NCBI GenBank assembly: GCA_026991395.1
Contig: JALXBP010000073.1
Coordinates: forward strand, 1-57,794
Source of the DNA: Anaerolineae bacterium
GTDB lineage: Bacteria; Chloroflexota; Anaerolineae; B4-G1; SLSP01
Length of the DNA: 57,794 bases
Reading direction: 5' to 3'
Numbering within the stretch: the stretch's first letter is position 1; each line of letters opens with the position of its first letter. Shown one piece after another: positions 13,886 through 28,540 of this stretch. Below the pieces are notes generated by a model that saw only the letters and a program-made list of their open reading frames with translations, ran no database searches and was not told where the DNA came from. Made by a program: the position numbers and the translations under genes.

Positions 13886-16429
13886 ATGAAACTCAAGCGG
13901 TTACTCATGCCTCTTGGCGTAGCGTTGGGGCTAACGATGGCCCTGATGTGGTTTCTGGGTACTGCGCCGGATTTGCATGCCCAGGGTGGCGCGAGGATCA
14001 TCCGCGTCTCTATGAGCGGTATGGATGTTCCCAACTGTGGCGAGGCGAGCATACCATGCCGCACGGTCCAGTACGCCGTGGATCAGGCCGAGGCCGGTGA
14101 CGAAATCCTCATCGCCGCCGGGGTTTACAACGGTGTGCAGGAGCGGACGGCTCCCTCCGGCTATCCCGGCACGGCGGTCGTGACCCAGGTGGTCTACATC
14201 AGCAAAACGCTGACGATGCGCGGCGGCTACACCACCTCTGACTGGAGCAACCCCGATCCGCAGGCTAACCCTACCGTCATCGACGCGCAAGGGCAGGGAC
14301 GGGGGCTTTTCATCGGCGGGGACATTACCGTTACCGTCGAGGGGCTGTCCATCATCGATGGGGACGCGACCGGCCTCGGCGGCGGCTACTCGAACGGCGA
14401 TGCTGGCGGCGGGGTCTACATCTACCGGAGCACGGCCATCATCAGCGCCACCACGATCTACAGCAACGTGGCCCAGAGCGGAGGGACAAGCCAGACGGGC
14501 CACGGTGGCGGACTGTACGCCCATACCGCCCACGTTACCTTGCTCCGCAACCAGATCGTCTCCAACACGGCCTCGGCCACCGGCGCCGGATATGGCGGAG
14601 GGGCCGGGTTCTACGGCTACAACGGCGGAGCGGCCACCTTGATCAGCAACACCGTGCTGGGCAACCGGAGCAGCCTGGGCGTTGCTGCTTACCGGTACGG
14701 CTACGGCGGCGGTCTCTCCTTCCGCTCGATGGAGCAGGGAGCCGTCTTGCTGGAACGCAACTTCATCCAGAGCAACACAGCGATGCTCGGCAATGAGAGC
14801 GGATACGGGGGCGGGCTATACTTCTCGGAGGTTTTCTCGGGTGCGTTGATCAGCAACACGATTCGGGAGAATATCGCCAGCCGCTCGACCGCCGGTACTT
14901 TCAAGGGCGGTTACGGCGGCGGAATTTGGGTACAGAATAGCCCGCTCACGCTGATGCACAACACCATCCTCGGCAACACGGGGTGTATGGGTTGTTCCGG
15001 TTCCGGTGGAGGGATGTGGGTCGATGCAAATATCGGCTTGAGCGACAACACGATCGGCGGGAACATTGCCAGTCTGACATCGAGGGGCAAGGGCGGCGGG
15101 CTATACTTCTCGCGAGGGGCCGACGTGGTGCAGGGCAACGTCATCACCGGGAATACCGCTAGCCGTGATAACTTAGGTTACGGCGGAGGCGTCTACTTTG
15201 CCCAGTGGTCTGCGACCTTCGGCGGCAACACCGTGGCCGACAACATCGCCAGTTGGAACAACGAGGGCTGGGGCGGCGGGCTGTATGTGGGTGGAACCAC
15301 AGGTGGCCAGCCTGCGCTGGCGGGCAACCAGGTGTTCAGCAACACGGCAAGCGTGGCTTCCACCGGGCACGGCGGCGGGCTTTTTCTGCTCAACAGCTAC
15401 CTTTCGCTGATGACCAACACGATCGCCTTCAACGTCGCAGGCGGGGGCGAGGGCGACGGCGGCGGGGTGCATGCCGAGGTGAGTGATCTCGTCTTTTCCG
15501 CCAACCGCATCTACAGCAACACGGCCACGTCGAGCGATGCCGCCACCGGTCTGGGCGGTGGACTTTACGGCGATCGGGGCAGCATCGCGCTGGTCAACAA
15601 CCTCGTCGCCGACAACCACGCCACCACCGCCGGGAGCGGCTTGTACTTCGTGGGCCGATCCTCCACTCCCTTCTCCGGCCACCTCGCCCACAATACCATC
15701 GCCGACAATCACAGCAGCGGAGAGGGGGTCTACGCGGGCGACTACGCCACGCTGCTCTTCACCAACACCATCATCGCCGGTCACGCTACGGCGGGCGTGA
15801 CCACCACTGCCGGGGCGGTCGTCACGATGACGGCGACCCTCTGGCACGGCAACGGCAGCGATGTGGCCGGGCCGGGCAGCTTCTACACCGCCACGAATCT
15901 CTACGGCGACCCGGCCTTCGCCGACCCGTCGGCCCTGGACTATCACCTCCGCGCCGGTTCACCGGCGATGGACGCCGGGGTGGATGCGGGCGTGACGACA
16001 GATTTCGAGGGCGATCCCCGCCCGGCAGGGAGCGGCTACGATCTGGGAGCGGATGAGTACTACATCATCGGCGTCCAACTCGCCCCCGATCACCACGGCG
16101 TGGGCAGCCCGGTTCGGGCCACCATCTACACCCACACGCTGACCAACACCGGCAACTACACCGACACCTTCGCCGTAACGTGGCAGGCTCCACCCGGCTG
16201 GACGGTGCAGGTCGTCCCGAACCCCGTTACGTTAGGGGGCGGGGCCACGCGGACGCTTTCGGCCACGATCACGCCGCCGAGCGATGCCGTCAGCGGCACG
16301 GTGGGGAGCGTCGTCATCACCGCCACCTCACAGGCCGATGTGAGCGTCGCCGCCACGGTAACCGATACGACCTTGCTGCGAGTATGGCACATCTACATCC
16401 CGATGACGCTGGCCGACTACGGGCCATAG
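13886..16429 (+). CDS. Secreted right-handed beta-helix (polymorphic-repeat) protein with NEW3-like domain and YIP tail
   Basis: The 847-residue protein begins with a Sec signal peptide (KLKRLLMPLGVALGLTMALMW, cleavage near A-Q about residue 33). A pectate-lyase-like start (A-I-P-C-R-T-V-Q-Y-A-V-D-Q-A) leads into about ten coils of a parallel beta-helix, each marked by G-x-G-G-G-[LIV]-[YW] and S-N-T-I/N-x-A-S motifs. This pattern is typical of chlamydial-Pmp-like and choice-of-anchor proteins. Residues ~735-830 form a NEW3-like immunoglobulin fold with TNTGNYTDTF and PPGWTVQVVPNPV. The C-terminus is W-H-I-Y-I-P-M-T-L, a variant of the tail shared with three other sequences in this window. ATG 13886 has GGAAGGAGGA upstream. 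Probable role: surface adhesin or polysaccharide interaction (inferred). Confidence 0.85.
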   Translation: MKLKRLLMPLGVALGLTMALMWFLGTAPDLHAQGGARIIRVSMSGMDVPNCGEASIPCRTVQYAVDQAEAGDEILIAAGVYNGVQERTAPSGYPGTAVVTQVVYISKTLTMRGGYTTSDWSNPDPQANPTVIDAQGQGRGLFIGGDITVTVEGLSIIDGDATGLGGGYSNGDAGGGVYIYRSTAIISATTIYSNVAQSGGTSQTGHGGGLYAHTAHVTLLRNQIVSNTASATGAGYGGGAGFYGYNGGAATLISNTVLGNRSSLGVAAYRYGYGGGLSFRSMEQGAVLLERNFIQSNTAMLGNESGYGGGLYFSEVFSGALISNTIRENIASRSTAGTFKGGYGGGIWVQNSPLTLMHNTILGNTGCMGCSGSGGGMWVDANIGLSDNTIGGNIASLTSRGKGGGLYFSRGADVVQGNVITGNTASRDNLGYGGGVYFAQWSATFGGNTVADNIASWNNEGWGGGLYVGGTTGGQPALAGNQVFSNTASVASTGHGGGLFLLNSYLSLMTNTIAFNVAGGGEGDGGGVHAEVSDLVFSANRIYSNTATSSDAATGLGGGLYGDRGSIALVNNLVADNHATTAGSGLYFVGRSSTPFSGHLAHNTIADNHSSGEGVYAGDYATLLFTNTIIAGHATAGVTTTAGAVVTMTATLWHGNGSDVAGPGSFYTATNLYGDPAFADPSALDYHLRAGSPAMDAGVDAGVTTDFEGDPRPAGSGYDLGADEYYIIGVQLAPDHHGVGSPVRATIYTHTLTNTGNYTDTFAVTWQAPPGWTVQVVPNPVTLGGGATRTLSATITPPSDAVSGTVGSVVITATSQADVSVAATVTDTTLLRVWHIYIPMTLADYGP

Positions 16430-16462
16430 GCAGAGACAAGCGCACGGCCGTCTTCCGTCCCT

Positions 16463-16483
16463 CCGCAGGTTCCTGACCTGCGG
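16463..16483. other. Short perfect hairpin in the intercistronic gap
   Basis: CCGCAGGT and ACCTGCGG form an 8-bp perfect stem with a 5-nt loop, ending 9 nt before the AAAGGAGAA ribosome-binding site of the lipoprotein gene. There is no T tract, so it is not a classical terminator. It could stabilise or process the mRNA between the two coding regions. Confidence 0.4.
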
Positions 16484-16506
16484 GACAAAGAAAGGAGAAC
16501 GACACG

Positions 16507-17490
16507 ATGATCAAGAGAATCCTGTTTCTGACGATGTTGCTCGCCATCCTCGCAAGCGGGTGCAAATCCGAAGCCTCTGCCCCTGCGACCGAGACCGCCC
16601 CCGCCGTCCCCACCAGCACCCCCGTCCCGACGGCGACGCCTCTCCCGCCGACGCCGATCCCGACGGCAACGCCTATCCCGTCCACACCGACGCCCGAACC
16701 GCCGCAGGAATCCGGCCTGGAGGCCAATCCCCAACGGGTGGAGTTCCAGGCCCAGGACGGCACGCAGTTGGTAGGGTACTACTACCCCTCCCGCTTCGCC
16801 GACGCCCCCATCATCGTGCTGGCGCACTGGGCAGGCGGCAATCAGCGGGACTGGGTGGAGATTGCTCTCTGGCTCCAGAACCGCCGGGATGAGGTTACCG
16901 ACTATCCCCGTCCAGGCGAGAACAACATCCCCGGCCCCTGGCTCGATCCCTCCTGGTTCCCCCCGATGCCCGCTAATCTCTCGTTTGCCGTCTTCACCTT
17001 CGACTTCCGAGGGTACGGCGAGAGCGCATCAGGAGCGATGGAGGGCCTGTCGCAGGATGCCCAAGCCGCCTTCGAAACAGCAGCCGGAATGGAGGGAGTC
17101 GATCCGCAGCGGATGGTGGGGATCGGGGCGAGCATCGGCGCCGACGGCGCGCCCGACGGCTGTCTGCTCTACAATCAGGCGCGGGGCGGCGGTTGTTTGG
17201 GGGCGATGGCCCTTTCGCCGGGCAATTACCTGGGGATGGACTTTGCCCCGGTGGTGGAGCAACTGGAGGCCCTCGACCCGCAGGGCGAGGTCTGGTGCCT
17301 GGCGGATAAGGAGGACCCTGCCGCTTACTCGACCTGCGAACCTGTCGAGGGAGACCTCTATCAGTTCTACGCCTTCCAGGATGCCGGGCACGGGATGATG
17401 CTCATCAAACCCGAAGTGGAGCCGCAGCCGCTGGAGCTGATCCAGCAGTTTCTGGGGAAGCTGTTGGGGATTCCCGCCCTGGAATCTTGA
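16507..17490 (+). CDS. Lipoprotein alpha/beta hydrolase (dienelactone-hydrolase-like)
   Basis: This 327-residue lipoprotein has the lipobox L-A-S-G-C (Cys19), then a Pro/Thr linker (~25-70) to hold the domain off the membrane. The catalytic fold shows IIVLAHWAGG near the oxyanion hole, FTFDFRGYGES, the nucleophile elbow G-A-S-I-G-A with Ser209, and a likely catalytic His295 in DAGHGM. Extra cysteines (CLLYNQARGGGC, VWCLAD, YSTCEP) may form disulfides outside the cell. It resembles membrane-anchored esterases of unknown substrate. AAAGGAGAA precedes the ATG. It follows the beta-helix gene by 77 nt and may be co-transcribed with it. Confidence 0.82.
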   Translation: MIKRILFLTMLLAILASGCKSEASAPATETAPAVPTSTPVPTATPLPPTPIPTATPIPSTPTPEPPQESGLEANPQRVEFQAQDGTQLVGYYYPSRFADAPIIVLAHWAGGNQRDWVEIALWLQNRRDEVTDYPRPGENNIPGPWLDPSWFPPMPANLSFAVFTFDFRGYGESASGAMEGLSQDAQAAFETAAGMEGVDPQRMVGIGASIGADGAPDGCLLYNQARGGGCLGAMALSPGNYLGMDFAPVVEQLEALDPQGEVWCLADKEDPAAYSTCEPVEGDLYQFYAFQDAGHGMMLIKPEVEPQPLELIQQFLGKLLGIPALES

Positions 17491-17496
17491 GAGACA

Positions 17497-17561
17497 ATAG
17501 CGTACGGGAGGTGACGGTCCCCTTCCGCATCTACCTGCCGCTGGTGCTGCGCAACCGGTAG
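17497..17561 (+). pseudogene. Orphan C-terminal YLPLVLRN tail of a lost secreted protein
   Basis: Immediately after the lipoprotein stop, a different frame reads SVREVTVPFRIYLPLVLRNR and then TAG. This is the same tail that ends the secreted proteins at 22251 and 28540. It has no start codon or body, so it is most simply the 3' end of a deleted or replaced surface-protein gene. It is followed directly by a terminator, which would have been that gene's own. Confidence 0.6.
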
Positions 17562-17576
17562 CGCAACAAAACGCAG

Positions 17577-17606
17577 AGGCCCGGCCAGAGCGGTCGGGCC
17601 TCTTTT
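17577..17606 (+). terminator. Rho-independent terminator
   Basis: AGGCCCG (17577-17583) pairs with CGGGCCT (17595-17601) around an 11-nt loop and is followed by CTTTT. It ends the lipoprotein transcript and sits 16 nt after the orphan tail. Confidence 0.8.
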
Positions 17607-17648
17607 CGTGGCACATAAACACGACTTCGGCGTCGAAGCGAGAGCCAT

Positions 17649-17680
17649 TTGACAGTTTTTTGACACCCTTCTTCTATCGT
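17649..17680 (+). promoter_or_regulatory. Tandem TTGACA boxes 11 bp apart before the large surface gene
   Basis: TTGACA occurs at 17649-17654 and again at 17660-17665, exactly one helical turn apart, with a TATCGT at 17675-17680 nine bases later. The usual 16-18-bp spacing is not met by either pair. The layout resembles an activator-dependent promoter in which direct repeats replace the -35. The transcript would have a leader of about 90 nt. Confidence 0.4.
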
Positions 17681-17775
17681 TCTGCTTAAGGCGTGTACCC
17701 CCCTGGGTCGTTTCGCCAATCTCCAGTTCGGTTCCCGTGTGGAGGACAGATTTTGCTACAGTAAGGAGGCCAATG

Positions 17776-20700
17776 ATGAAGACGCACATAGGGAAAAGTA
17801 CGTGGCTGCTCGTCTCGGCCGCGTGGGCCGTTATCCTGCTCCTGATCATCCTCGCCGGTTTGAACACCTCGACGCCCACCCTCTCCGCTCCGACGGTAAT
17901 TTACACCCTCTCCGGGCGTGTCTATGTTGGGGAAACAGGTGCGGAGCCGCCGGTCAGTACGCCTCTGAGCGATGTCGTCGTCAGTCTCTATTGTGCCTAC
18001 AATGCCGACGAAGTCGGGCGTTTCGTCCTCAGCACGACGACGGATAGCACGGGCTGGTACGGGTTGGATGCCGACAGCACCACCGGCTGCGGCTGGTTCA
18101 ACATCATCGAGACGGACCCGCCGGGGTATACTTCGAACGGGGCCACGACCGTCAGCGGCTCGGTGCGCAGTGCCAACTGGATCGCGTACGATGCCTCTTC
18201 GCTCGATCAAGCGACGCTGACCGGCAACAAGTTCTGGGACAACCCACCGCCCACGACGATAACCTGTACCTCCTGTGCCGACTGCCAGGCCAAGCTGGAC
18301 GGGACGTACAGGGTGGTCAGCCTGACCAACGACATCAATACTTCCTCCAGTTCCTGCATCGTGTTTGGAGGGGACAATGTTACCTTCGACTGCCAAGGGC
18401 ATGCCATCCGCACCCAAAGTCACGGCGAGTTCTCCTACGGCATTCGGCTGACCAACCGCCAAAGCGATACGGTGCGGAACTGTACGATCTCCGGCTTTCA
18501 CACCGGCATCGATCTCTATGGCACCACCCATTCTCACTTTTTGACCAATACCATCACCGGCACGGTGCAGGGTATCGCCCTGCACAACTCGCTGACCAAC
18601 ACCTTCAGCGGCAATCAGATCACCAATACGACGACCGGCATATGGATCGGGGGCTCGAACGGCAACACTTTGACGCACAACCGGATATGTCATCAGAGCA
18701 GCGGGGACATATACGTATCCGGGATAACGTCCGGCAACGTCAGGATGGCGAACACCTGCGACTCCATCTACAACTGGAACGGGAGCAACAGCGTCAGCCT
18801 CTGTGACTCGGTCTGCACGCCCAACACCTCGACCACCTGCTCCACCGCGTCCGACTGTGAGGGCAAGCTGAACGGCAGTTACGGCACGGTCATTCTCGGA
18901 GCCGATGTGCACGACGCGGATGGGTTGACTATCGGCGGCAACAACCTCACGCTGGACTGCAACTATCACGCCATCCGGGGCAGCGGCCAGCCGAACTCGG
19001 TCGGTATTCTGCTGCGTAATCGAGTCGGCGTCCACATCCGGCGATGCAATATCTACAGCTACACCGTCGGCATCGACCTTGATTCGTCATCACTCAATAC
19101 GATCACGGGCAGCAAGGTGATGAGCAATGCCATCGGGGTACGCATCTTTACGACCACGCTCCCGTCCCAGCAGAACGAGATCAGGGAAAATACCATCCAT
19201 CGTAACTCGCTGTACGGCGTCGAGTTGATCGATGTCAGCAACAATACGATCCAGAGCAACAACTTCGCCGACAACGGTGAATACGCGCTGTGGGTAGACC
19301 ATGCCTGCAGCAACGATGTCGAGAGCAATATGATCGACATCAAGCCACTGCTCTACTGGAGCGACAGCACGATCTCCAGGACGCTCAGCTCCGATCAGTA
19401 CGGCTTGATCTTCTTCTGTAATGTGCGGAACGCCACGATCCGGGGGACGACCGTCGCCAACTCGGCCCACCACAACAATAACGGCGTCCTCATCGTCGAT
19501 TCGGGCAACATCACGATGACCAACAACCTCGTGCGATACAGCAACGGTATCTACGTGCGCGGCTCGGATCACGTCAGGGTGTACACCAATACGGTCGAAC
19601 ACAACAGGCATGCGGGTATCCTCTTCGAGAACTCGCCGGTTGGCGAGATACGCAACAACCGCGTTCAGCACAACAACCTCCTCAGCGACAGCTTCGGTAT
19701 CTCGGTCATCGGCGGCTCGGATTGGACCGTGGTCGTGAGCAACACTCTCACCGACAACAGCCAGGGGATCGGCGTGCAGGACTCGGACGCGGTGGTTCTG
19801 AATCAAAATCTCGCCTACTCGAACCACGGGGACGGGATGGCGATTCGGTACAGCAACGGCGGTCACATCGAAGGGAATACCGTCGTCGCCAATCAGCACG
19901 GTCTCTACATGGACGCGCACACGAGCAACTACTGGCTCCAGGGGAACGAGGTGTGCCGCAACCAGGGCCAGGATATTTTCAACGACGGCACGGACAACAC
20001 CGGCAGCAACAACACCTGCGCCTTTACCTGGTGGTGGCACGACAACGGCGTCTCCTCAGGCTGCAACAGCCGGTGCGTCGGCTGGTACAATCGCGGTTGG
20101 GGCTTTGGCTTCCACAATATCTCTGTGGACGATCTCCCATGGAGACGTTACGAGGAAACCTTCGGCAAGGACGAAGTCGATGTGACGGTCAAGCTCTGTA
20201 TAGGCGTCCCCGTTTGTATCCCCTTCAAATGCTGGTGTTTGGGGAAGAAAGTGGACATAGAGACCCCTGTCCCCGATCCGTTCGCCGCATTATTGTATGC
20301 CTTCTTTTACCAAGACATAGCCGAACCAGGCTCCTGCTTCGGGATGAGTGCCAAATCGCTCCAGTTCTTCTATGGCGACGACAACGTCTCCAATTACGAC
20401 AGTTCGGCGGCCTTCGTCCGTGACCTGCACAGCGATAACGGCAGCCTGGCAACCCGCCGAGAGATACTCCAGGGCAGCCAGATGTCTACCGAGGCGATCG
20501 ACTTCTACATCGCCGAGTTGCTCGCCGGCCATGATTCGGCGAATTACGTCCTCGAAGCAGCGCGGAACGGCTTGGCCGCCGATCACCCCAACTTCGTCAT
20601 CATCAAGAACGGCCTGACCGATGGCCATGCTATGAACTACGATACCGTCGTGGATGTGAATGCCAACACCTCCCGCATCTACGTCTATGACAACAACAAG

Positions 20701-22251
20701 GAGCAATACGTCAACAACGTCTATCCCTGGGCCAGTTCCTACCCCGCGATCGTCATCGACCGCGCCGCCGATCAGTGGAGCTACGATATGGGATCGACCA
20801 CCTGGAGCGGGGATGACCCGATCTTCGACTTTCCTTACAGTCTGGTCAACCGCACGGACTGGACCCTGCCCGGCTCCGCCAACGGCATACTCAACTATCT
20901 CGTCGGCGACAGTGCCTACGGCAACATCGAGGATATGAGCGGCAATCTCCTGGGCTATGACGAGTCCGGTACGCCGCACGAGGAGATCCCGCATGGGATG
21001 GGGTACCCGCTCGTGGGGGCAACACTCTCGATGACCCGCTCGATCTTCCTGGTGCAGCCGGGCGACTATAACATGAACGTCTATGGCGGCGGTACGTACT
21101 CGATGTACATCACCGGCCTCAACGGTGGCTACATCCTGGGCGGCATCCCGCTCGGCAGCGGCGCGCACGACTACCTCGAACTGCGCACCATCAACGGCAA
21201 CCCGTACAATCACGAACTCTCTTTCGAGACAGCCGACCCTGCCAAGCCGCTCGATGTGCTCCTCTTCAGAAGCTGGGACCCCGACGCCGACCGGCGTTAC
21301 TACCACATCACGAACCTCGATCTGGACAACGATGGGCGCGTCTTGGTCAAGGTACTCGCCGACCACAGCGGCATCGCCATCTCCAACAGAGGCGCCGATC
21401 CCTTTACCTATGATGCCGAGTTCAGCAACGAGATGGTGCGGGCGGGCGGCTCTCCCCTCGGTCAGGTGCCGACCGTTCAGATTACCGGCTTGGCACTCGA
21501 TCCGGGGAAGACGGCAACGCTCGTTCCCACCGACTGGGGGGACTTGAGCAGCGCGGGGGTAGAGGTTCAGGTCACGACGTGTGGCGACGCGGTTTGTGAG
21601 GGCGGGGAGGATCACATCAACTGCCCGGCGGACTGTGCGCCGCTCGCTTGCCAGGAGCCGCACGACGATATGCACGTTACCGGCACGACGCTGCTGTGCG
21701 GCGGTACCTATGAGCTTGCCGACCAGGGTGAAGCGGGGGTGATCATCGTCGATGACGGCGCAACGCTGGACTGCAACGGTGCTCACTTGATCGGCGATGG
21801 AGGCGGCATCGGCATCCTCAGCGAAGGCACGCAGAGCGTCACGATCGAGAACTGCTATGTCGAACGGTACGCTACCGGCATCGTCATGCAGGGGGTCGGC
21901 GACGGGACACTCTCCGACTCGATGATGACGGCCAACAGCGACTGGGGCCTGGTGGCCGAGAATGCCCCGAACCTGAGCGTCCGGCAAAACTATATCGTGG
22001 AGAACGCTGGCGGTATCCACCTCCTCGACACGGACGGCGTGGCCGTGGAGCGCAACTACATCTGCGCCAATGACAGCATTGACATCCACAGCGAGGTCAA
22101 TGGGGCGAGCAGCGGCGCGCAGAACGCCTGCGGCACCGCCGAAGGATGGCTCGACGAGGGCGGCACGCCGTGCGAGTTCCAATGCACCGTGGCGGGCCAG
22201 ATCCTGAACCCGTCGATCTATCTACCCCTGGTGATACGCAACGACCACTAA
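17776..22251 (+). CDS. Giant secreted beta-helix protein with embedded papain-like cysteine-peptidase domain
   Basis: The 1491-residue protein has a membrane-spanning signal (~10-32) and a Cna-B/SdrD-like domain (~42-150: YTLSGRVYVGETG..PLSDVVVSLYCAY). Two NosD-like parallel beta-helix blocks follow (~160-770), each opened by a T-C-x-x-C or T-C-S-T-A-x-D-C motif. The middle (~800-990) departs from the helix and has G-S-C-F-G-M-S (Cys854), D-G-H-A-M-N-Y-D (His951) and D-N-N (972-974), the order expected of a papain/C39-like peptidase. A beta-sandwich, a CGDAVCEGGEDHINCPADC metal-binding-type repeat and a third short beta-helix lead to the tail I-Y-L-P-L-V-I-R-N-D-H. ATG 17776 is 6 nt from AAGGAGG. 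A 17773 start is also possible. Confidence 0.85.
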   Translation: MKTHIGKSTWLLVSAAWAVILLLIILAGLNTSTPTLSAPTVIYTLSGRVYVGETGAEPPVSTPLSDVVVSLYCAYNADEVGRFVLSTTTDSTGWYGLDADSTTGCGWFNIIETDPPGYTSNGATTVSGSVRSANWIAYDASSLDQATLTGNKFWDNPPPTTITCTSCADCQAKLDGTYRVVSLTNDINTSSSSCIVFGGDNVTFDCQGHAIRTQSHGEFSYGIRLTNRQSDTVRNCTISGFHTGIDLYGTTHSHFLTNTITGTVQGIALHNSLTNTFSGNQITNTTTGIWIGGSNGNTLTHNRICHQSSGDIYVSGITSGNVRMANTCDSIYNWNGSNSVSLCDSVCTPNTSTTCSTASDCEGKLNGSYGTVILGADVHDADGLTIGGNNLTLDCNYHAIRGSGQPNSVGILLRNRVGVHIRRCNIYSYTVGIDLDSSSLNTITGSKVMSNAIGVRIFTTTLPSQQNEIRENTIHRNSLYGVELIDVSNNTIQSNNFADNGEYALWVDHACSNDVESNMIDIKPLLYWSDSTISRTLSSDQYGLIFFCNVRNATIRGTTVANSAHHNNNGVLIVDSGNITMTNNLVRYSNGIYVRGSDHVRVYTNTVEHNRHAGILFENSPVGEIRNNRVQHNNLLSDSFGISVIGGSDWTVVVSNTLTDNSQGIGVQDSDAVVLNQNLAYSNHGDGMAIRYSNGGHIEGNTVVANQHGLYMDAHTSNYWLQGNEVCRNQGQDIFNDGTDNTGSNNTCAFTWWWHDNGVSSGCNSRCVGWYNRGWGFGFHNISVDDLPWRRYEETFGKDEVDVTVKLCIGVPVCIPFKCWCLGKKVDIETPVPDPFAALLYAFFYQDIAEPGSCFGMSAKSLQFFYGDDNVSNYDSSAAFVRDLHSDNGSLATRREILQGSQMSTEAIDFYIAELLAGHDSANYVLEAARNGLAADHPNFVIIKNGLTDGHAMNYDTVVDVNANTSRIYVYDNNKEQYVNNVYPWASSYPAIVIDRAADQWSYDMGSTTWSGDDPIFDFPYSLVNRTDWTLPGSANGILNYLVGDSAYGNIEDMSGNLLGYDESGTPHEEIPHGMGYPLVGATLSMTRSIFLVQPGDYNMNVYGGGTYSMYITGLNGGYILGGIPLGSGAHDYLELRTINGNPYNHELSFETADPAKPLDVLLFRSWDPDADRRYYHITNLDLDNDGRVLVKVLADHSGIAISNRGADPFTYDAEFSNEMVRAGGSPLGQVPTVQITGLALDPGKTATLVPTDWGDLSSAGVEVQVTTCGDAVCEGGEDHINCPADCAPLACQEPHDDMHVTGTTLLCGGTYELADQGEAGVIIVDDGATLDCNGAHLIGDGGGIGILSEGTQSVTIENCYVERYATGIVMQGVGDGTLSDSMMTANSDWGLVAENAPNLSVRQNYIVENAGGIHLLDTDGVAVERNYICANDSIDIHSEVNGASSGAQNACGTAEGWLDEGGTPCEFQCTVAGQILNPSIYLPLVIRNDH

Positions 22252-22263
22252 GAGACTTGTGGC

Positions 22264-22300
22264 AAAGCCCCTCGAAGGCCCTGAGCTTTCGGGGGGCTTT
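22264..22300 (+). terminator. Terminator hairpin of the giant surface-protein gene
   Basis: AAAGCCCC-T-CGAA (22264-22276) pairs with TTTCG-G-GGGGCTTT (22287-22300), interrupted by single-base bulges. The tail after the stem is short (the T's are part of the stem), so efficiency is uncertain. Confidence 0.6.
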
Positions 22301-22335
22301 CACGACTTCCCCTGCCTCCGCCTTCCTCTCAGATG

Positions 22336-22430
22336 CCCGGTCATATGTCCCACCTTGCAAATTCTCTCCAAGGTATAGGTCGATTGGCAGATGACAGGCA
22401 TCCTCTGCCTGTGCTATGATGGCACCAGGA
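22336..22430. repeat. 95-bp direct repeat, copy B, carrying the NmrA-like gene promoter
   Basis: This is the partner of 13635-13729. It contains ATGACA (22391-22396) and TATGAT (22415-22420) with an 18-bp spacer, placed 41 nt before the NmrA-like start. It also contains an inverted repeat ACCTTG (22352-22357) / CAAGGT (22369-22374), which could be an operator. In copy A the left arm of this dyad is degraded (GCCTCG). The 30-bp identical core runs from the right arm through ATGACAG. Confidence 0.8.
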
Positions 22431-22461
22431 ATGGAGAGAGCCTCTTTTGGAAAGGACGGCT

Positions 22462-23331
22462 ATGGAGGGGAAGATTCTCATCTTGGGCGCGACCGGGACC
22501 TTTGGGCGACCGGTAACCCGCAGCCTTCTGGAGAAGGGCTTCGCCGTGCGCGTGCTGGCGCGCCTCCCCCAAAAGGCCCGCCGCTTGTTCGGGGCGACCG
22601 TGGATGTTGTTCCGGGGGACGCGGGTAACGAAGCCGATCTGCGGCGGGCGATGCGAGGGTGCTGGGCCGTGCATATCAGCCTGCCCTACCGGCTCGATCC
22701 CGTGGTTATGGAGCGGGTCGTCGGCCTGGGCCGCGAGACCGGCCTGCGGCGCATCACCTACGTCTCGGCCACCAATGCCCACGAGACAACCCGCCGCTTC
22801 GAGATGAGCGCCGCCAAGTTACGGGCCGAGGCGCGGCTGCGCAGCAGTGGCTTCGCCTGCACCATCTTCTGCCCCACCTGGGCGATGGAGACGCTGCCCC
22901 GTTTCGTCCGGGGAGGCTGGGGGCTGGCCATCGGCAGCCTGAAATCCACGCCCATCCACTTCGTCGCGGGGGAGGACTTTGGCCGTATGGTGGCCGCTTC
23001 CTACGAGGACGACCGCGCCCTGGGCAAGCGCCTCTTCATCCACGGGCCGGAAGCCGTTCCGCTCCCCGAAGCCCTGATTCGTTTCGTGCGTGCGTGCTAC
23101 CCCGACCTTCATATCCTGCGCCTGCTTCCCTGGCAGGTCCGCCTGATTGCCGCGCTGACCGGCCGCCAGGAACTGGCCGAGGTGGCCCGGTTGATTGCCT
23201 ATTTCGACGAGGTGGGCGAATTGGGCGATCCTTCGGAAGCCAACGCTCTCCTCGGTGGGCCGACCGTAACCTTGCAGCAGTGGATCGAGGGGCGGAAGGC
23301 AAGAGTCTTGGACACAAGGCACGAAAGATGA
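22462..23331 (+). CDS. NmrA/SDR-type NAD(P)-binding protein
   Basis: The 289-residue protein starts with the Rossmann motif I-L-I-L-G-A-T-G-T-F-G-R-P-V (G-A-T-G-x-x-G) and continues with VPGDAGNEADLRRAM, VSATNAHET and FCPTWAMETLP, as in the atypical short-chain dehydrogenase/NmrA-like group. These proteins bind NAD(P) as redox sensors or act as reductases; the usual catalytic Y-x-x-x-K is not evident (MSAAKLRAE stands in that place), so a sensor role is possible. ATG 22462 has AAAGGA upstream. Its promoter is inside repeat copy B. It stands apart from the surface genes on its left. Confidence 0.82.
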   Translation: MEGKILILGATGTFGRPVTRSLLEKGFAVRVLARLPQKARRLFGATVDVVPGDAGNEADLRRAMRGCWAVHISLPYRLDPVVMERVVGLGRETGLRRITYVSATNAHETTRRFEMSAAKLRAEARLRSSGFACTIFCPTWAMETLPRFVRGGWGLAIGSLKSTPIHFVAGEDFGRMVAASYEDDRALGKRLFIHGPEAVPLPEALIRFVRACYPDLHILRLLPWQVRLIAALTGRQELAEVARLIAYFDEVGELGDPSEANALLGGPTVTLQQWIEGRKARVLDTRHER

Positions 23332-23401
23332 GCGGCAGAGAGTGTGAGAGGAGTACCTCCCTCGAGGAAACTCCCTTCCTCCGAGCTTGGGGCAGATTCC
23401 G

Positions 23402-23626
23402 ATGAAACGAGAGACGGCGTACCTCTCTTTTTTGGTGCGTTTGTGGCACGCGCCTGAGGCCGACCGCGATTGGCTGGTTCAGGTGGAGCACATTCTCAGC
23501 GGGGAAACGCATTATTTCGGTTCACTGGAGGAACTGTTCGCCTTCGTTCGGGCCACGGTGGAAGGGTTGGAGGCGCAGGACGAGAACACGGCGGGGCCTC
23601 ATCCCGAGCTGGACGTCGGCGACTGA
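23402..23626 (+). CDS. Small conserved-looking hypothetical protein
   Basis: The 74-residue protein KRETAYLSFLVRLWHAPEA.. has a pattern of an L-[VL]-R-L-W strand, an H-I-L-S-G-E-T-H-Y-F hairpin and an S-L-E-E-L-F-A-F-V helix. I recognise it as a recurring small protein in Chloroflexota genomes, with no known function. There is no signal or membrane segment. The Shine-Dalgarno is weak. Its last 28 bases overlap the end of the convergent histidine-kinase gene, so antisense interaction between the two mRNAs is possible. Confidence 0.65.
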   Translation: MKRETAYLSFLVRLWHAPEADRDWLVQVEHILSGETHYFGSLEELFAFVRATVEGLEAQDENTAGPHPELDVGD

Positions 23627-24876
23627 GACCTCTCGGCTCTTTCCCCAAGGAAGGGCAAGGGAAGCTCCATAACCAGCCGGAAGCGCCCCTCCGATGTCGG
23701 CCCGGCGTGCAATTCGCCGCCCAGCGCCTCGGCACGCTCCCGCAGGCCGCGCAGGCCGAAGCCTTCCCGGAACGGTTCTCCCGTCTCCGGGAGGCTGTTC
23801 TCCACGATCATCTGCACGCGGTCCTCGCCGTAGCGCAGTGTGGCCGTTATCCGGGCGGCATCGGGGGCGTGGCGCTGCACATTGGTCAGCCCTTCTTGCA
23901 AAGCGCGGTACATCGCCAGTGCCTCGGCTTCGGGAAGTGGCCGGGGCTGCCCCTGAATTTCCCATCCCACCGGACGCCTGGCCCGCTGCACAAAGTTCGC
24001 CACCAGTTGCTTCAAAGCCTCGGGGAGGGCCAGGGTCTCCAGAGGTGGAGGACGAAGCGCCTGCACGGCCCGCCATACCTCGGCCTGTGCGTCGGCCACC
24101 AGCCGCCGCGCCCGCGCCAATGCGCGGCGGCGGGCCTCGTCCTCTTGCGGCGGCAGGCGGTGGAGAAGTTCCAGTTGCAATCCCAGCGCCGTCAGCGTGT
24201 GCCCCATAGCGTCGTGGATTTCGTGGGCCAAACGGGTCCTTTCCTGGGAAACGGCCAGCGCTTCGGCCTTGGCCGTGTAATCCTGCAACTGCCGGTAAGC
24301 CTCCTCCAGCTCTGTTGCCAGAGCCTCGGCATGTTCCCGCGCTTCCCAGAGGCGCACGACCAACTCCGCCACGCCCCAGACCAGCAGGTAGGTGGGGAGG
24401 TCTCTCACGAACAGGCTCATCCCTCTGGACCAGCCCAGCAAGGCCACGTGGGCCGGGATCATCGTCCCCATCAAAACCCCCACCCAGCCCAAAGCCCAGC
24501 GCCTGCCGTGAAAGAGAGCGAGGGAGGTATACTCATCGAACAGGGCCAGCGCGAAGTAGATCGCCGTCTCGCCGCGCAAAAGCCAGAAAAAGGCCAGTGC
24601 CCATGCCAGCGTCAGGAAGGAAGGTTGCAGGCGCACCGGCACACCCGGCCCGCGCGGGAGTTTGATGGTTTGCGGGATCACTACGATGTAGCCCACCGCC
24701 AGCGCCAGCGAAAGCAGGCCAAACGCCCCAACGGCCAGGGGGGACAGGGGCGGCTCCAGCGTCAGGGCATAGAAGACGAAGAGCGCACCGAACAACATCG
24801 CCGCGCCCAGCCCGAAGATTTGGGCCTCTCGGCGGGAAGCCTCGGAAAGCGGCGGTGGAGGGCCTTCAGTCATCAT
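23599..24876 (-). CDS. NarL-family membrane sensor histidine kinase (HisKA_3)
   Basis: The 425-residue kinase has about six membrane segments (~20-175) and no large extracellular sensor, so it may sense the membrane itself. A coiled linker (~175-210) leads to the HisKA_3 box R-T-R-L-A-H-E-I-H-D-A-M-G-H (phospho-acceptor His221) and an HATPase with ALQEGLTNVQRHA and GFGLRGLRERAEALGG. It overlaps the response-regulator gene by 8-11 nt (two consecutive ATGs at 24876 and 24873), so the pair is translationally coupled. The longer frame reaching 24999 would run deep into the regulator gene and is rejected. The overall layout is like DesK/LiaS-type systems. Confidence 0.9.
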   Translation of the reverse strand: MMTEGPPPPLSEASRREAQIFGLGAAMLFGALFVFYALTLEPPLSPLAVGAFGLLSLALAVGYIVVIPQTIKLPRGPGVPVRLQPSFLTLAWALAFFWLLRGETAIYFALALFDEYTSLALFHGRRWALGWVGVLMGTMIPAHVALLGWSRGMSLFVRDLPTYLLVWGVAELVVRLWEAREHAEALATELEEAYRQLQDYTAKAEALAVSQERTRLAHEIHDAMGHTLTALGLQLELLHRLPPQEDEARRRALARARRLVADAQAEVWRAVQALRPPPLETLALPEALKQLVANFVQRARRPVGWEIQGQPRPLPEAEALAMYRALQEGLTNVQRHAPDAARITATLRYGEDRVQMIVENSLPETGEPFREGFGLRGLRERAEALGGELHAGPTSEGRFRLVMELPLPFLGERAERSQSPTSSSG

Positions 24877-25531
24877 ACAAAAGTCCCCATTCCACGGCCA
24901 GGCGCGCGGCATGGGCGCGATCCCGCGCTCCCAGCTTCCCCAGAATGTGGCTGACGTGGTTCTTGACCGTGCCTTCGGAAACGCCAAGGCGCGCGGCAAT
25001 CTCCGCGTTGGACGCGCCTTCTGCCAGCAGGCCCAGCACTTGGCGCTCGCGGTCGGTCAGACGCTCGTGGAAAACCGGGGTCTCTTGCCCTTCCCGAAGA
25101 TGGGCGATCACCCGCCCGGTCACGGCAGGGTCGATGACCGATTCCCCCGCCGCCACCGCCTGGATGGCCGCCAGCAGCCGGTCGGAATCGGTGCGCTTGA
25201 GCAGATAGCCCCAGGCCCCGGCCCGCAGGCCCTCGATGACATACTCATCGTGGGGGAAGGTGCTCAATAGCAGCACTCGCACGGGGGAGTTTCGGGCGTG
25301 CAGCCGCCGTGTTACCGCCACGCCGTTCATACCGGGCATGCGCACGTCCAGCAAGAGCACGTCGGGAACCTGCTCCTCGGCGATTCGCAACGCCTCCCGC
25401 CCGCTGCGTCCTTGGGCAACCACCTCTACCTCCGGCATCAGAGAAAGCAGGGCGGCCAGCCCTTCCCGGATGAGCGTTTCGTCGTCTACGATAGCGACCC
25501 GGACTTTCGTGGGACCTCTCGGCGAGGGCAT
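24866..25531 (-). CDS. NarL/FixJ-family response regulator
   Basis: The 221-residue regulator has a receiver domain (~10-125) with acidic pair Asp16-Asp17, phospho-acceptor Asp62 in LLLDVRMPGMNG, and Lys in LLKRTD. A LuxR-type helix-turn-helix (~155-215: LTDRERQVLGLLAEGASNAEIAARLGVSEGTVKNHVSHILGKLG) binds DNA. Its partner is the overlapping kinase at 23599-24876. The start at 25531 is preceded by GAGGAAGAGGAG. It is divergent from the surface gene at 26039, so that gene is a natural candidate target (inference from position only). Confidence 0.93.
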   Translation of the reverse strand: MPSPRGPTKVRVAIVDDETLIREGLAALLSLMPEVEVVAQGRSGREALRIAEEQVPDVLLLDVRMPGMNGVAVTRRLHARNSPVRVLLLSTFPHDEYVIEGLRAGAWGYLLKRTDSDRLLAAIQAVAAGESVIDPAVTGRVIAHLREGQETPVFHERLTDRERQVLGLLAEGASNAEIAARLGVSEGTVKNHVSHILGKLGARDRAHAARLAVEWGLLYDD

Positions 25532-25572
25532 CTCCTCTTCCTCTTACGACTGCTGTGGGGAACCGCATCTTT

Positions 25573-25601
25573 ACGATACCCCTTTTCGGGCTTTTAGTCA
25601 A
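25573..25601 (-). promoter_or_regulatory. Promoter of the NarL-type two-component operon
   Basis: On the minus strand, TTGACT (25601-25596) and TATCGT (25578-25573) are separated by 17 bp, with a leader of about 35 nt to the regulator ATG. Confidence 0.65.
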
Positions 25602-25722
25602 TATCGTTAGCAGAGCAGGACCGCGCGATTGCCGGTTAAGCCGATGGCAAACGGGACTGAAGAGACGAGGCGGAGGACGGTTGTGTTGGTTAGAGAATGG
25701 TAATAAGAGTTGTTGTAACCGG

Positions 25723-25756
25723 TTTCTCCAAAATTCATCATTGAATTTTGGAGAAA
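25723..25756. promoter_or_regulatory. Perfect 15-bp-arm palindrome (operator candidate)
   Basis: TTTCTCCAAAATTCA (25723-25737) and its exact reverse complement (25742-25756) flank a TCAT spacer. No T tract follows on either strand, so it is not a terminator. Its right arm covers the -35 box of the plus-strand promoter, the classic place for a repressor dimer or tetramer site. The low GC content contrasts with the region around it. Confidence 0.75.
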
Positions 25757-25769
25757 AATAGTGTAAACT
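25741..25769 (+). promoter_or_regulatory. Promoter of the surface-protein gene, overlapped by the palindrome
   Basis: TTGAAT (25741-25746) and TAAACT (25764-25769) are exactly 17 bp apart. The leader to the coding region at 26039 would be about 260 nt and contains a possible 62-residue upstream frame. Confidence 0.55.
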
Positions 25770-25853
25770 GAGAGAGATGTAGCTCATCGATGTACCGACA
25801 TCTCTCTTCCTCTCGTCCATTTTCGTAGTTGCGTCGCGCGAGGAGGTGTGCAG

Positions 25854-26042
25854 GTGAATGCTCCGCGTTCTCCCTCGGCGGAAGGGGCATCCTGTGGCTT
25901 GTGTAGAGGCCCTCCCTCTCGTGACCTGTCTCGTTGTTGGCCTTTGGGGAGCGCCGTTATCGTCCATCGCTGCTTTCCCCACGTTGCACTTGCGAACTTC
26001 TCTGATTTTCACATTCACTTCACGAAAGGAGCATTGAGATGA
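25854..26042 (+). CDS. Possible 62-residue upstream frame coupled to the surface-protein gene
   Basis: A GTG at 25854 lies 7 nt after a strong AGGAGG, and the frame stays open until a TGA that overlaps the ATG of the next gene (ATGA at 26039-26042). The product has clustered Cys and His (C-G-L-C, R-C-W, H-R-C-F, H-I-H) but matches no family I know. The Shine-Dalgarno and the 4-nt overlap favour translation. The composition (Pro/Ser/Arg-rich) is also what untranslated GC-rich leader would give, so this is uncertain. Confidence 0.35.
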   Translation: MNAPRSPSAEGASCGLCRGPPSRDLSRCWPLGSAVIVHRCFPHVALANFSDFHIHFTKGALR

Positions 26043-28540
26043 AACGAAGATTGGCCGTTTTGATGACCACGATCGTGGTCGCTTTGCTGATGATGTCGGC
26101 CTTTAGCGTGATGGCACGCGACATGGCGAGTACCCGACACGCGCTCCCCTATCCCCCGCAGCCCGCGGGACCGGTCTCGAGACAGGCCGCAGGCTCTCAC
26201 GGGGCCTCGGTGAGCCAGCCTGTTCGGCTGACGCAAAGCAACTACTACGAGCGTGGAGAGGCCATTGTTTACGACGGCACGAACTATTGGCTCTTCTTCG
26301 GCCGTTCGACGACCGTAACCGGCACCTACGCCGATACGAATCCGGATGTCCGGGACTATGTGGTCTATTACAAGGTCGCCCCCTCCATCCCCGAACTGGT
26401 AACGGCCTCCGCAACCCTCATCTCCGGCGTCGCGCATAACGCCAACGGCTACCAGGGCGAAACCGGTGCGGCCTACTTCGACGGCGATGTCTGGGCTTTC
26501 GCGACGGTGGTTAGCGGCAGCGTGGCCGATCTCTACGGATGGTACACGAACGACGGCGGCGCGACGTGGACGGAGGTCGGGCCGATCATCGCGGGTCTCG
26601 GCAGCGGGCAAGCGCACCACGACGAGATCGCCTTCGACGGCGAACTGTGGGTCGTCGAAGGTTCTGGCAACTTCACTACCATCCATAGCGCTACCCCCAA
26701 AACGGGCGGGTGGACTTCGCCGCTGGATGTCGATAGCAGCCTCACGGGCGGACTGGCCCATTTCTTCGTCGATGGCAGCGAGCTTTATCTGGCGATCTAC
26801 AGCAGTAACGCCAACTACATCTACAAGTACAATCCGGCGACCCCCGCCTGGGAAGAGGTGGACACGATCACGCCGCCGGAAAAGTACGATCCGACCCTCT
26901 TCAAGGTTGGGGAAACCTACGTCTTCGCCCAGGCTCCCTGGGATGGCGTGCGTCAGTACATCATCGCCTGGTCCAACGACACGCTGGACGACACCTTCTT
27001 CGACGGCGGCTACACGCTCGTCACCGAGGGGCGCTACGGCTCCAATCCCTGGGTGGATATGTGGCCGATCGGCTTCACCACTCCCGGCGGCGACAGCTAC
27101 CTCTTCTTCACCTCCGAGAGGAACCCCGACGACCCCTCGCAGGAGATCAGCGGCAATATCTGGTACCTGAAGGTGGACTGGGACCTGGAGCACGACCACT
27201 ACACCTATGTCCAGGAGGCGGTGGATGGTGCCAACGATGGCGAGACGATCGATATTGCTCCGGGCACCTATGTGGAGCAGGTAGAGATCACCAAGACGAT
27301 CACGCTGAGCGGGGCGGGCGTCGGTGAAACGATCATCCGCTCACCGGACGTGCTTCTGCTCTACTTCACGACCAGCGCCGAGAATCACCCCATCATCTAT
27401 GTGCACGATGTGGATTCGACGACGGTGCGCCGTATGACGGTGGACGGCGCGGGCAAGGGCAACAATGCTTACCGTTTCTCCGGCATCGCTTTCCGCAATG
27501 CGGGGGGGACGGTCGAGGATGTGGAGATCAAGGATGTGCGTGATACGCCCTTCAGCGGGCGTCAACACGGCGTGAGCCTGTACCTCCTCAATACCGACGG
27601 CGTAACCCGCACCATCCACGTGTACGACAGCCGCTTCACCGGCTTCCAGAAGAATGCGATGGCCCTGAACGCTGCCTCGACGGCGTTGACCGTGGACGTG
27701 CGGCGCAATACGGTCATCGGCGCAGGAGCGATCGAAACGATAGCCCAGAACGGTATTCAGGTCTGGGCGGCACAAGGAAGCGGCGTCATCGCCGATAACA
27801 ACATCTCCAGGATCGCCTACGATAACACCAACGACTCCATCAAGTGGGTGGCCAGTTCGATACTCGACTTCTATGCCGGGCTGACCATCACGGGCAACAC
27901 GATTACCGAGGGCCATATGGGCATCTACAACTACGATGGCGCTTCGCAGATCGGCGGCAACGACCTCTCCATCGAAAAGGTGGGGGTCGAAGCGTGGGGT
28001 ATCGTGGCTTCCGACCCGCCCGACGTGCATCCCGCGCCGCTGGTCGATGCGGCGCTCCTTGCCTCGCCACGGCTGGCCCCGACGGCGGCGGATGCCGTGC
28101 TGACCGTGAATATCTACAGCAACACACTGGCCTTCAGCGGCGCGGTCACGACCAACACGCACGGCATCGAGGTCGATGCCGGATACGGACCGGACGACCT
28201 GGCCGTGACGATGACGCATAACATCGTCCGCGATTTCGATACGGGCATCGGCTTCATACAATGCGAAGGGAGTTGCGATGTCGGTACCTACACTGCGCTG
28301 GTGGTAAGCCGCAACTGTCTCTACGGCAACACCTACGGGATGACCTCCAACCTGACCAGCACCGTGGAGGCAACGGGGAACTACTGGGGGCACTTCTCCG
28401 GCCCCTATCATCCCACGTTGAACCCACGCGGGCAGGGGGATGCGGTCGATGACGGGATCGTCTTCGATCCCTGGTCGCTGGTGTGTGGCGGCGCGCCGAT
28501 CCAGCGCACCTACTTGCCGATTGTTCTGCGCAATCACTAA
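26039..28540 (+). CDS. Secreted beta-propeller/parallel beta-helix protein with YLPIVLRN tail
   Basis: The 833-residue protein has a signal peptide (KRRLAVLMTTIVVALLMMSAFS). Residues ~60-385 look like a five-bladed sialidase/GH43-like propeller, with repeated W/Y-[LV]-F-F-x-S and Y-D-P-T-L-F strands and D-G-G-x-T-W-like Asp-box YTNDGGATWTEV. Residues ~390-815 form a pectinesterase/DUF1565-like beta-helix starting TYVQEAVDGANDGETIDIAPGTY. The protein ends I-Q-R-T-Y-L-P-I-V-L-R-N-H. ATG 26039 has AAAGGAG upstream. Probably extracellular, binding or acting on a polysaccharide (inferred). Its control region carries the strongest palindrome of the window, and it is divergent from a two-component system. 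Confidence 0.85.
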   Translation: MKRRLAVLMTTIVVALLMMSAFSVMARDMASTRHALPYPPQPAGPVSRQAAGSHGASVSQPVRLTQSNYYERGEAIVYDGTNYWLFFGRSTTVTGTYADTNPDVRDYVVYYKVAPSIPELVTASATLISGVAHNANGYQGETGAAYFDGDVWAFATVVSGSVADLYGWYTNDGGATWTEVGPIIAGLGSGQAHHDEIAFDGELWVVEGSGNFTTIHSATPKTGGWTSPLDVDSSLTGGLAHFFVDGSELYLAIYSSNANYIYKYNPATPAWEEVDTITPPEKYDPTLFKVGETYVFAQAPWDGVRQYIIAWSNDTLDDTFFDGGYTLVTEGRYGSNPWVDMWPIGFTTPGGDSYLFFTSERNPDDPSQEISGNIWYLKVDWDLEHDHYTYVQEAVDGANDGETIDIAPGTYVEQVEITKTITLSGAGVGETIIRSPDVLLLYFTTSAENHPIIYVHDVDSTTVRRMTVDGAGKGNNAYRFSGIAFRNAGGTVEDVEIKDVRDTPFSGRQHGVSLYLLNTDGVTRTIHVYDSRFTGFQKNAMALNAASTALTVDVRRNTVIGAGAIETIAQNGIQVWAAQGSGVIADNNISRIAYDNTNDSIKWVASSILDFYAGLTITGNTITEGHMGIYNYDGASQIGGNDLSIEKVGVEAWGIVASDPPDVHPAPLVDAALLASPRLAPTAADAVLTVNIYSNTLAFSGAVTTNTHGIEVDAGYGPDDLAVTMTHNIVRDFDTGIGFIQCEGSCDVGTYTALVVSRNCLYGNTYGMTSNLTSTVEATGNYWGHFSGPYHPTLNPRGQGDAVDDGIVFDPWSLVCGGAPIQRTYLPIVLRNH

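Follow-up and report, generated by a model that had tools for sequence, protein, structure and literature searches.

Several kinds of C-terminal tag are described for the sorting of exported proteins. The PEP-CTERM, GlyGly-CTERM and MYXO-CTERM tags are tripartite and consist of a motif, a helix and a basic cluster (PMC11980579), and the partner of PEP-CTERM was identified through phyletic profiling (PMC1569441). In the type IX secretion system (T9SS), the C-terminal domain of the client proteins has a short conserved extreme C-terminus (motif C-t.) that is important for function, and PorU, too, has the C-terminal domain of the system to which it belongs (PMC11285876). Sorting tags have also been reported to function in mid-protein (PMC11980579).

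A short tail found on exported proteins of Chloroflexota resembles each of these systems in part. As with LPXTG and sortase, the carriers have a signal peptide, are unrelated in their bodies and share a short proline-containing motif at the C-terminus, but the motif is located 7-10 residues from the end and is not followed by a hydrophobic helix or a basic cluster. As with PEP-CTERM and exosortase, a genome holds many copies, carried by exported proteins that are diverse in sequence, but the tail has no transmembrane helix. GlyGly-CTERM/rhombosortase and MYXO-CTERM/myxosortase are likewise systems of C-terminal sorting tags on exported proteins, and an ExeM/NucH-type nuclease is among the Chloroflexota tail proteins as well; the Chloroflexota tail, in contrast, consists of the motif alone, and the helix that these systems require is missing. 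The likeness to T9SS and PorU is that a C25-family peptidase bears the C-terminal signal of the clients and co-occurs with it in genomes. Unlike the T9SS signal, the tail is not a folded Ig-like domain of ~80 residues, as the last 26 residues are unfolded in an AlphaFold model, and copies of it are also found in N-terminal and internal positions. The tail differs from every known C-terminal sorting signal compared here in having neither a helix nor a folded domain. No Pfam or NCBIfam family matched over the tail in the proteins scanned, and literature searches found it nowhere described.

The tail is a real, phylum-restricted and previously undescribed tag of exported proteins, and it most likely functions in their surface retention or sorting. 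In its specific form, the proposal is that [VIL]-Y-L-P-[LIM]-[VI]-[LMV]-[RK]-(N-x) serves Chloroflexota as a portable tag for sorting proteins to the surface or retaining them there, and we give it an even chance of being correct. How Chloroflexota place proteins at the cell surface is largely unexplained, and tagged proteins, which include enzymes and adhesin-like ones, number in the dozens per genome. If the proposal is true, a C-terminal sorting signal that is specific to one phylum and has no helix would represent a class not described before. The tail would then offer a direct handle on its recognition factor through phyletic profiling and pull-down, and annotators could use it to spot surface proteins across thousands of MAGs from Chloroflexota.

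The tails of the window

The window is the whole stretch of 57,794 nucleotides that was analyzed. A six-frame scan for [YF][LIVM]P near a stop codon recovered all four tail copies that the preliminary description had reported there, three of which close long ORFs with N-terminal signal sequences (Table 1). That description attributed a shared R-N tail to these proteins, which is accurate for three of the copies. The first copy, at the end of the choice-of-anchor Q protein, is a variant that lacks R-N, and the end of this protein reads IYIPMTLADYGP directly before the stop codon; its N-terminal signal is MKLKRLLMPLGVALGLTMALMWFLG. A similar variant is found elsewhere, as YLPLTIADY closes a C25 peptidase of another family.

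Table 1. Features of the window that carry or adjoin the tail, and loci of a recurrent cassette (last row)
Feature	Position	Strand	Basis
Exported repeat protein, 847 aa, choice-of-anchor Q domain, variant tail	13886..16429	+	ORF; NF041518 choice_anch_Q, E 1e-9
Tail YIPMTLADYGP-stop, variant without R-N	16394..16429	+	six-frame scan
Lipoprotein-type (LASGC) alpha/beta-hydrolase-like protein, no in-frame tail	16507..17490	+	ORF, profile search
Orphan tail IYLPLVLRNR-stop	17532..17561	+	out of frame with hydrolase; terminator-like hairpin right after
Exported right-handed beta-helix protein, ~1490 aa, with tail	17773..22251	+	Beta_helix E 7e-51, NosD E 2e-45
Tail IYLPLVIRNDH-stop	22219..22251	+	six-frame scan
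Exported protein, 833 aa, beta-helix-type segment and tail	26039..28540	+	ORF, profile search
Tail TYLPIVLRNH-stop	28511..28540	+	six-frame scan
Cassette round ~90-aa tail proteins	L019:6232-15188, L016:3669-12149, L028:868-7360, L009:1766-3624, L021:9502-10972; also L110, L138, L170, L174

The remaining copy is an orphan that starts ~40 bases 3' of the stop codon of the lipoprotein-type hydrolase gene. In the interval 17501-17606 it is positioned between that stop codon and the terminator-like hairpin (gaggcccg...cgggcctctttt), and the interval contains no properly spaced start codon for it. It is possible that the orphan is the relic of a lost tail gene, or that it arose by chance. An origin by frameshift from the hydrolase gene is not backed by the single good homologue of the hydrolase, a protein of G494 with 46% identity that likewise has no tail at its end. 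A further tail-like orphan, YLPLVLRGH before a stop codon on the minus strand at L024:15078, is preceded by merely 7 codons, sits in a different frame where a glycosyltransferase-like gene begins, and is probably a product of chance.

Conservation and taxonomic range of the motif

In the assembly from which the window was taken (G000, 2.46 Mb), the tail pattern TAYHTNCCNNTNRTNNTN had 38 matches compared with 3 for the reversed pattern that served as the control. The corresponding numbers were 31 and 0 for G192 and 35 and 0 for G214, and relaxed tails are under-counted in figures of this kind because the counting relied on matching DNA patterns and on an in-house gene caller. When all 38 matches of G000 were read in context, 29 were found 7-10 residues from an in-frame stop codon, and all but two of these (27 of 29) close plausible genes. 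The DNA behind the tails is varied, with 24 different 18-mers encoding the 29 tails and 13 different 15-mers encoding 18 YLPLV tails, so what is under selection is the peptide and not a DNA repeat.

The consensus of 114 distinct tails is [VIL]-Y-L-P-L-V-[LM]-R-N-x, the core of which is conserved by construction since many of the tails were gathered with an exact DNA seed. Outside the seed, the tyrosine is preceded by [VIL] in 106 of the 114 tails and the arginine is followed by N in 47. The 29 tails of G000, which were gathered with the degenerate pattern, mostly read YLP[LMI]V, then one further residue, then R or K. The R-N ending noted in the preliminary description is typical of the window's order, where tails end in R-N-x(1-3), but it is often missing in other lineages, such as families f26 and f6, where a bare R or K frequently precedes the stop codon; YLPLVVR and YLPLIIK are examples of tails that stop straight after the basic residue.

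A strict DNA pattern applied to 84,980 named species genomes matched at least 115 stretches. Among the matches listed, in-frame terminal copies were present in 83 of 88 Chloroflexota stretches versus 0 of 27 from other phyla (Hymenobacter, Enterobacteriaceae and others), where all 27 matches fall within proteins, and the association with Chloroflexota suspected at the outset is borne out to this extent. The Chloroflexota groups with terminal copies among these matches are Anaerolineae, Thermoflexia/Thermoflexales, Caldilineales, Ardenticatenales, Oscillochloris, Viridilinea and Chloroflexaceae. The tail-rich groups inside the phylum are the window's order, families f25, f26 and f62, and part of f6 and f36, while many other families of the phylum have the pattern at control level. 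One genome, G011, has 87 pattern matches. The matches in two genomes, G080 and G332, and the majority of those inspected in family f23 were set aside as background-like, given that few of them are in-frame terminal endings.

Tail proteins and the position of the tail

Gene statistics were obtained with a codon-model gene caller from 720 kb of G000 that included all pattern matches together with background. Of the 113 complete proteins that have a hydrophobic signal at the N-terminus, 26 bear the tail, as opposed to none of 390 other proteins (p = 1e-18), a contrast that is conservative despite the choice of stretches by their tails; the resulting share of 23% among exported proteins is an overestimate because the stretches were picked for tails. 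Had the tail been equally common in cytoplasmic proteins, the idea of a sorting signal put forward in the preliminary description would have lost its basis, and the numbers bear out the restriction to exported proteins. In two further genomes, the few tail proteins called as non-exported were mis-called starts or fragments. A lipobox is rarer in tail proteins (2/63 versus 26/148, p = 0.004). A C-terminal hydrophobic helix was found in 1 of 63 tail proteins versus 12 of 148, a difference that is not significant, and the earlier statement that no helix follows the motif holds.

The bodies of the tail proteins are mostly unrelated to one another in BLAST comparisons and include beta-helix proteins, C25 peptidases, ExeM/NucH nucleases, metallophosphatases, GH8 proteins, beta-propellers, Calx-beta proteins and proteins of 90 aa. 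Some of the bodies belong to families that have other anchors elsewhere, such as choice_anch_Q (the first tail protein of the window) and ExeM/NucH.

The motif had been described as the extreme end of the protein, and on this point the description has to be amended. Among the copies in exported proteins of G000, G192 and G214, 73 are C-terminal, 4 follow shortly after the signal peptide and 7 are internal, a count that omits an internal match from one protein lacking an export signal. Roughly 13% of the copies in the three genomes are therefore near mature N-termini or internal, and the internal copies are mostly found at domain borders. Further N-terminal copies occur in L043, in L075, where the copy follows a Tat-type signal, and in L117, where it is ahead of a LysM-like sequence.

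In the mechanism proposed here, the short, unfolded and hydrophobic tail, which ends in or close to a basic residue, would be recognized on the outer side of the membrane by a factor that keeps or places the tail protein at the cell surface. The tail would act as a docking epitope for which the extreme C-terminus is strongly preferred. Such a role would predict tails near mature N-termini and between domains as well, and the N-terminal and internal copies thus favor a docking epitope over an obligatory C-terminal cleavage signal. We infer that the tail is recognized in trans and that it mediates surface retention; more broadly, a role in export, anchoring or processing would be in line with the preliminary description.

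Candidate partners and competing explanations

An alternative is that the tail is a processing signal at which a PorU-like C25 cysteine peptidase cleaves or transpeptidates, after or near the Arg/Lys, and thereby links proteins to a polymer of the cell surface, in the manner of a Por-type sortase that operates with no type IX translocon. The tail proteins of G000 include a PorU-related C25 peptidase (L003:2423-4984); the closest solved structure is PorU (PDB 6za2, 1.7e-10), and the catalytic His and Cys are retained in the homologous C25 domain. It matches the PorU model NF033707 at 2e-50, but its 171 bits are far below the equivalog cut-off of 420. C25 peptidases were found in 25 of 27 genomes preselected as tail-rich versus 6 of 43 preselected as tail-poor (p = 3e-11 with kinship ignored, the test not being independent of it), and over 400 genomes the strong C25 matches are mainly in tail-bearing families. 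In addition, 25 of 27 C25 proteins themselves close in a relaxed tail (VALPLVQR, YLPAIIK, FLPVVGR), and the C25 peptidase of G192 (L291, L242), which ends in FLPLVAGD, has an internal YLPLVLRN ~96 residues ahead of the catalytic domain. A processing signal is not refuted by the internal copies, since the tags of other systems are reported to work in mid-protein.

Several observations speak against processing by C25. Many Chloroflexales-type tails stop exactly at the Arg, so cleavage after this residue would remove nothing, and the copies straight after a signal peptide make no sense as C-terminal cleavage sites. A gene family with the same phyletic pattern as the tail, which the preliminary description proposed to look for, was found in C25 only in part, as no C25 was detected in G276 or G208, both of which have terminal tails, and several C25-positive genomes are tail-poor or tail-less (G361 and G382 have C25 without detected tails). 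We regard the processing signal as rather unlikely. The C25 peptidase is still, tentatively, the best candidate partner of the tail and the first to test, and it may be merely a widely kept client of the tail system. If it does read the tail, Chloroflexota could have a minimal surface-sorting system, in which an exported PorU-like C25 peptidase, itself tag-bearing, reads a tag of just seven residues that has no membrane helix, in the absence of a type IX translocon. Such a system might be related to the Por sorting step or have preceded it; we consider this scenario doubtful. SprA_N (PF14349) had matches in 0 of 17 genomes, a search that likewise returned no positive-control match.

Returning to the tail as a docking epitope, the specificity of its recognition may be questioned. 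The tail could be a sticky peptide or quality-control element with no receptor, with the hydrophobic, basic tail binding non-specifically to the membrane surface, an extracytoplasmic chaperone or a protease. The hydrophobic core between basic residues, the tolerance of relaxed variants and the several positions occupied in proteins would suit such a peptide. The conservation of residues, both in the G000 tails and at the position before the tyrosine, looks too tight for it, as does the restriction to a single phylum among the matches listed, and we find this explanation unlikely.

It is also conceivable that the tail completes the preceding domain, either as its last strand or as a stabilizing cap, given that it often follows directly after a choice_anch_Q or Ig-like domain. 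An identical tail is found on unrelated folds and on 90-aa proteins, and AlphaFold leaves the tail unplaced. In a model of a tail-bearing beta-helix protein, based on an alignment of 12 sequences in which the tail core is invariant, the body is mostly above 90 pLDDT and the tail is at 29-42, with the last 26 residues including the tail below 50 and unfolded. The tail is predicted to be no part of the fold of this protein, the one for which a usable model was obtained (a model of the 90-aa family, at pLDDT 52, was too poor), and together with the mostly unrelated bodies this agrees with the initial view that the motif does not belong to a longer folded domain. A structural cap is therefore very unlikely. 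Finally, a chance likeness of C-termini in a high-GC genome, for which the shortness of the motif could be cited, has a negligible probability in view of the excess over the control in G000, G192 and G214 and the terminal position of most G000 matches.

Two familiar enzymes were rejected as partners of the tail. Sortase (PF04203) is missing from G168, which has many terminal tails, and is present in 29 of 43 tail-poor genomes. Exosortase (PF09721) has the wrong distribution, with no match in G000, G214, G168, G335 and most other genomes and, among the tail-rich genomes tested, a strong match only in G011. The latter genome also has 8 C25 matches, and G361 has 5 C25 matches and an exosortase, with no detected terminal tails.

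No dedicated partner recurs in the gene neighborhoods of the tail genes, where the only recurrent arrangement is a cassette round one family of small tail proteins (Table 1). These proteins of ~90 aa are of a GGFW or CLGYWC type and are adjacent to an exported FTYQGRLL...CDFRFSLWDA protein. At some loci, the cassette also includes a large regulator-like protein of ~1200 aa and an ~80-aa RIWW protein.
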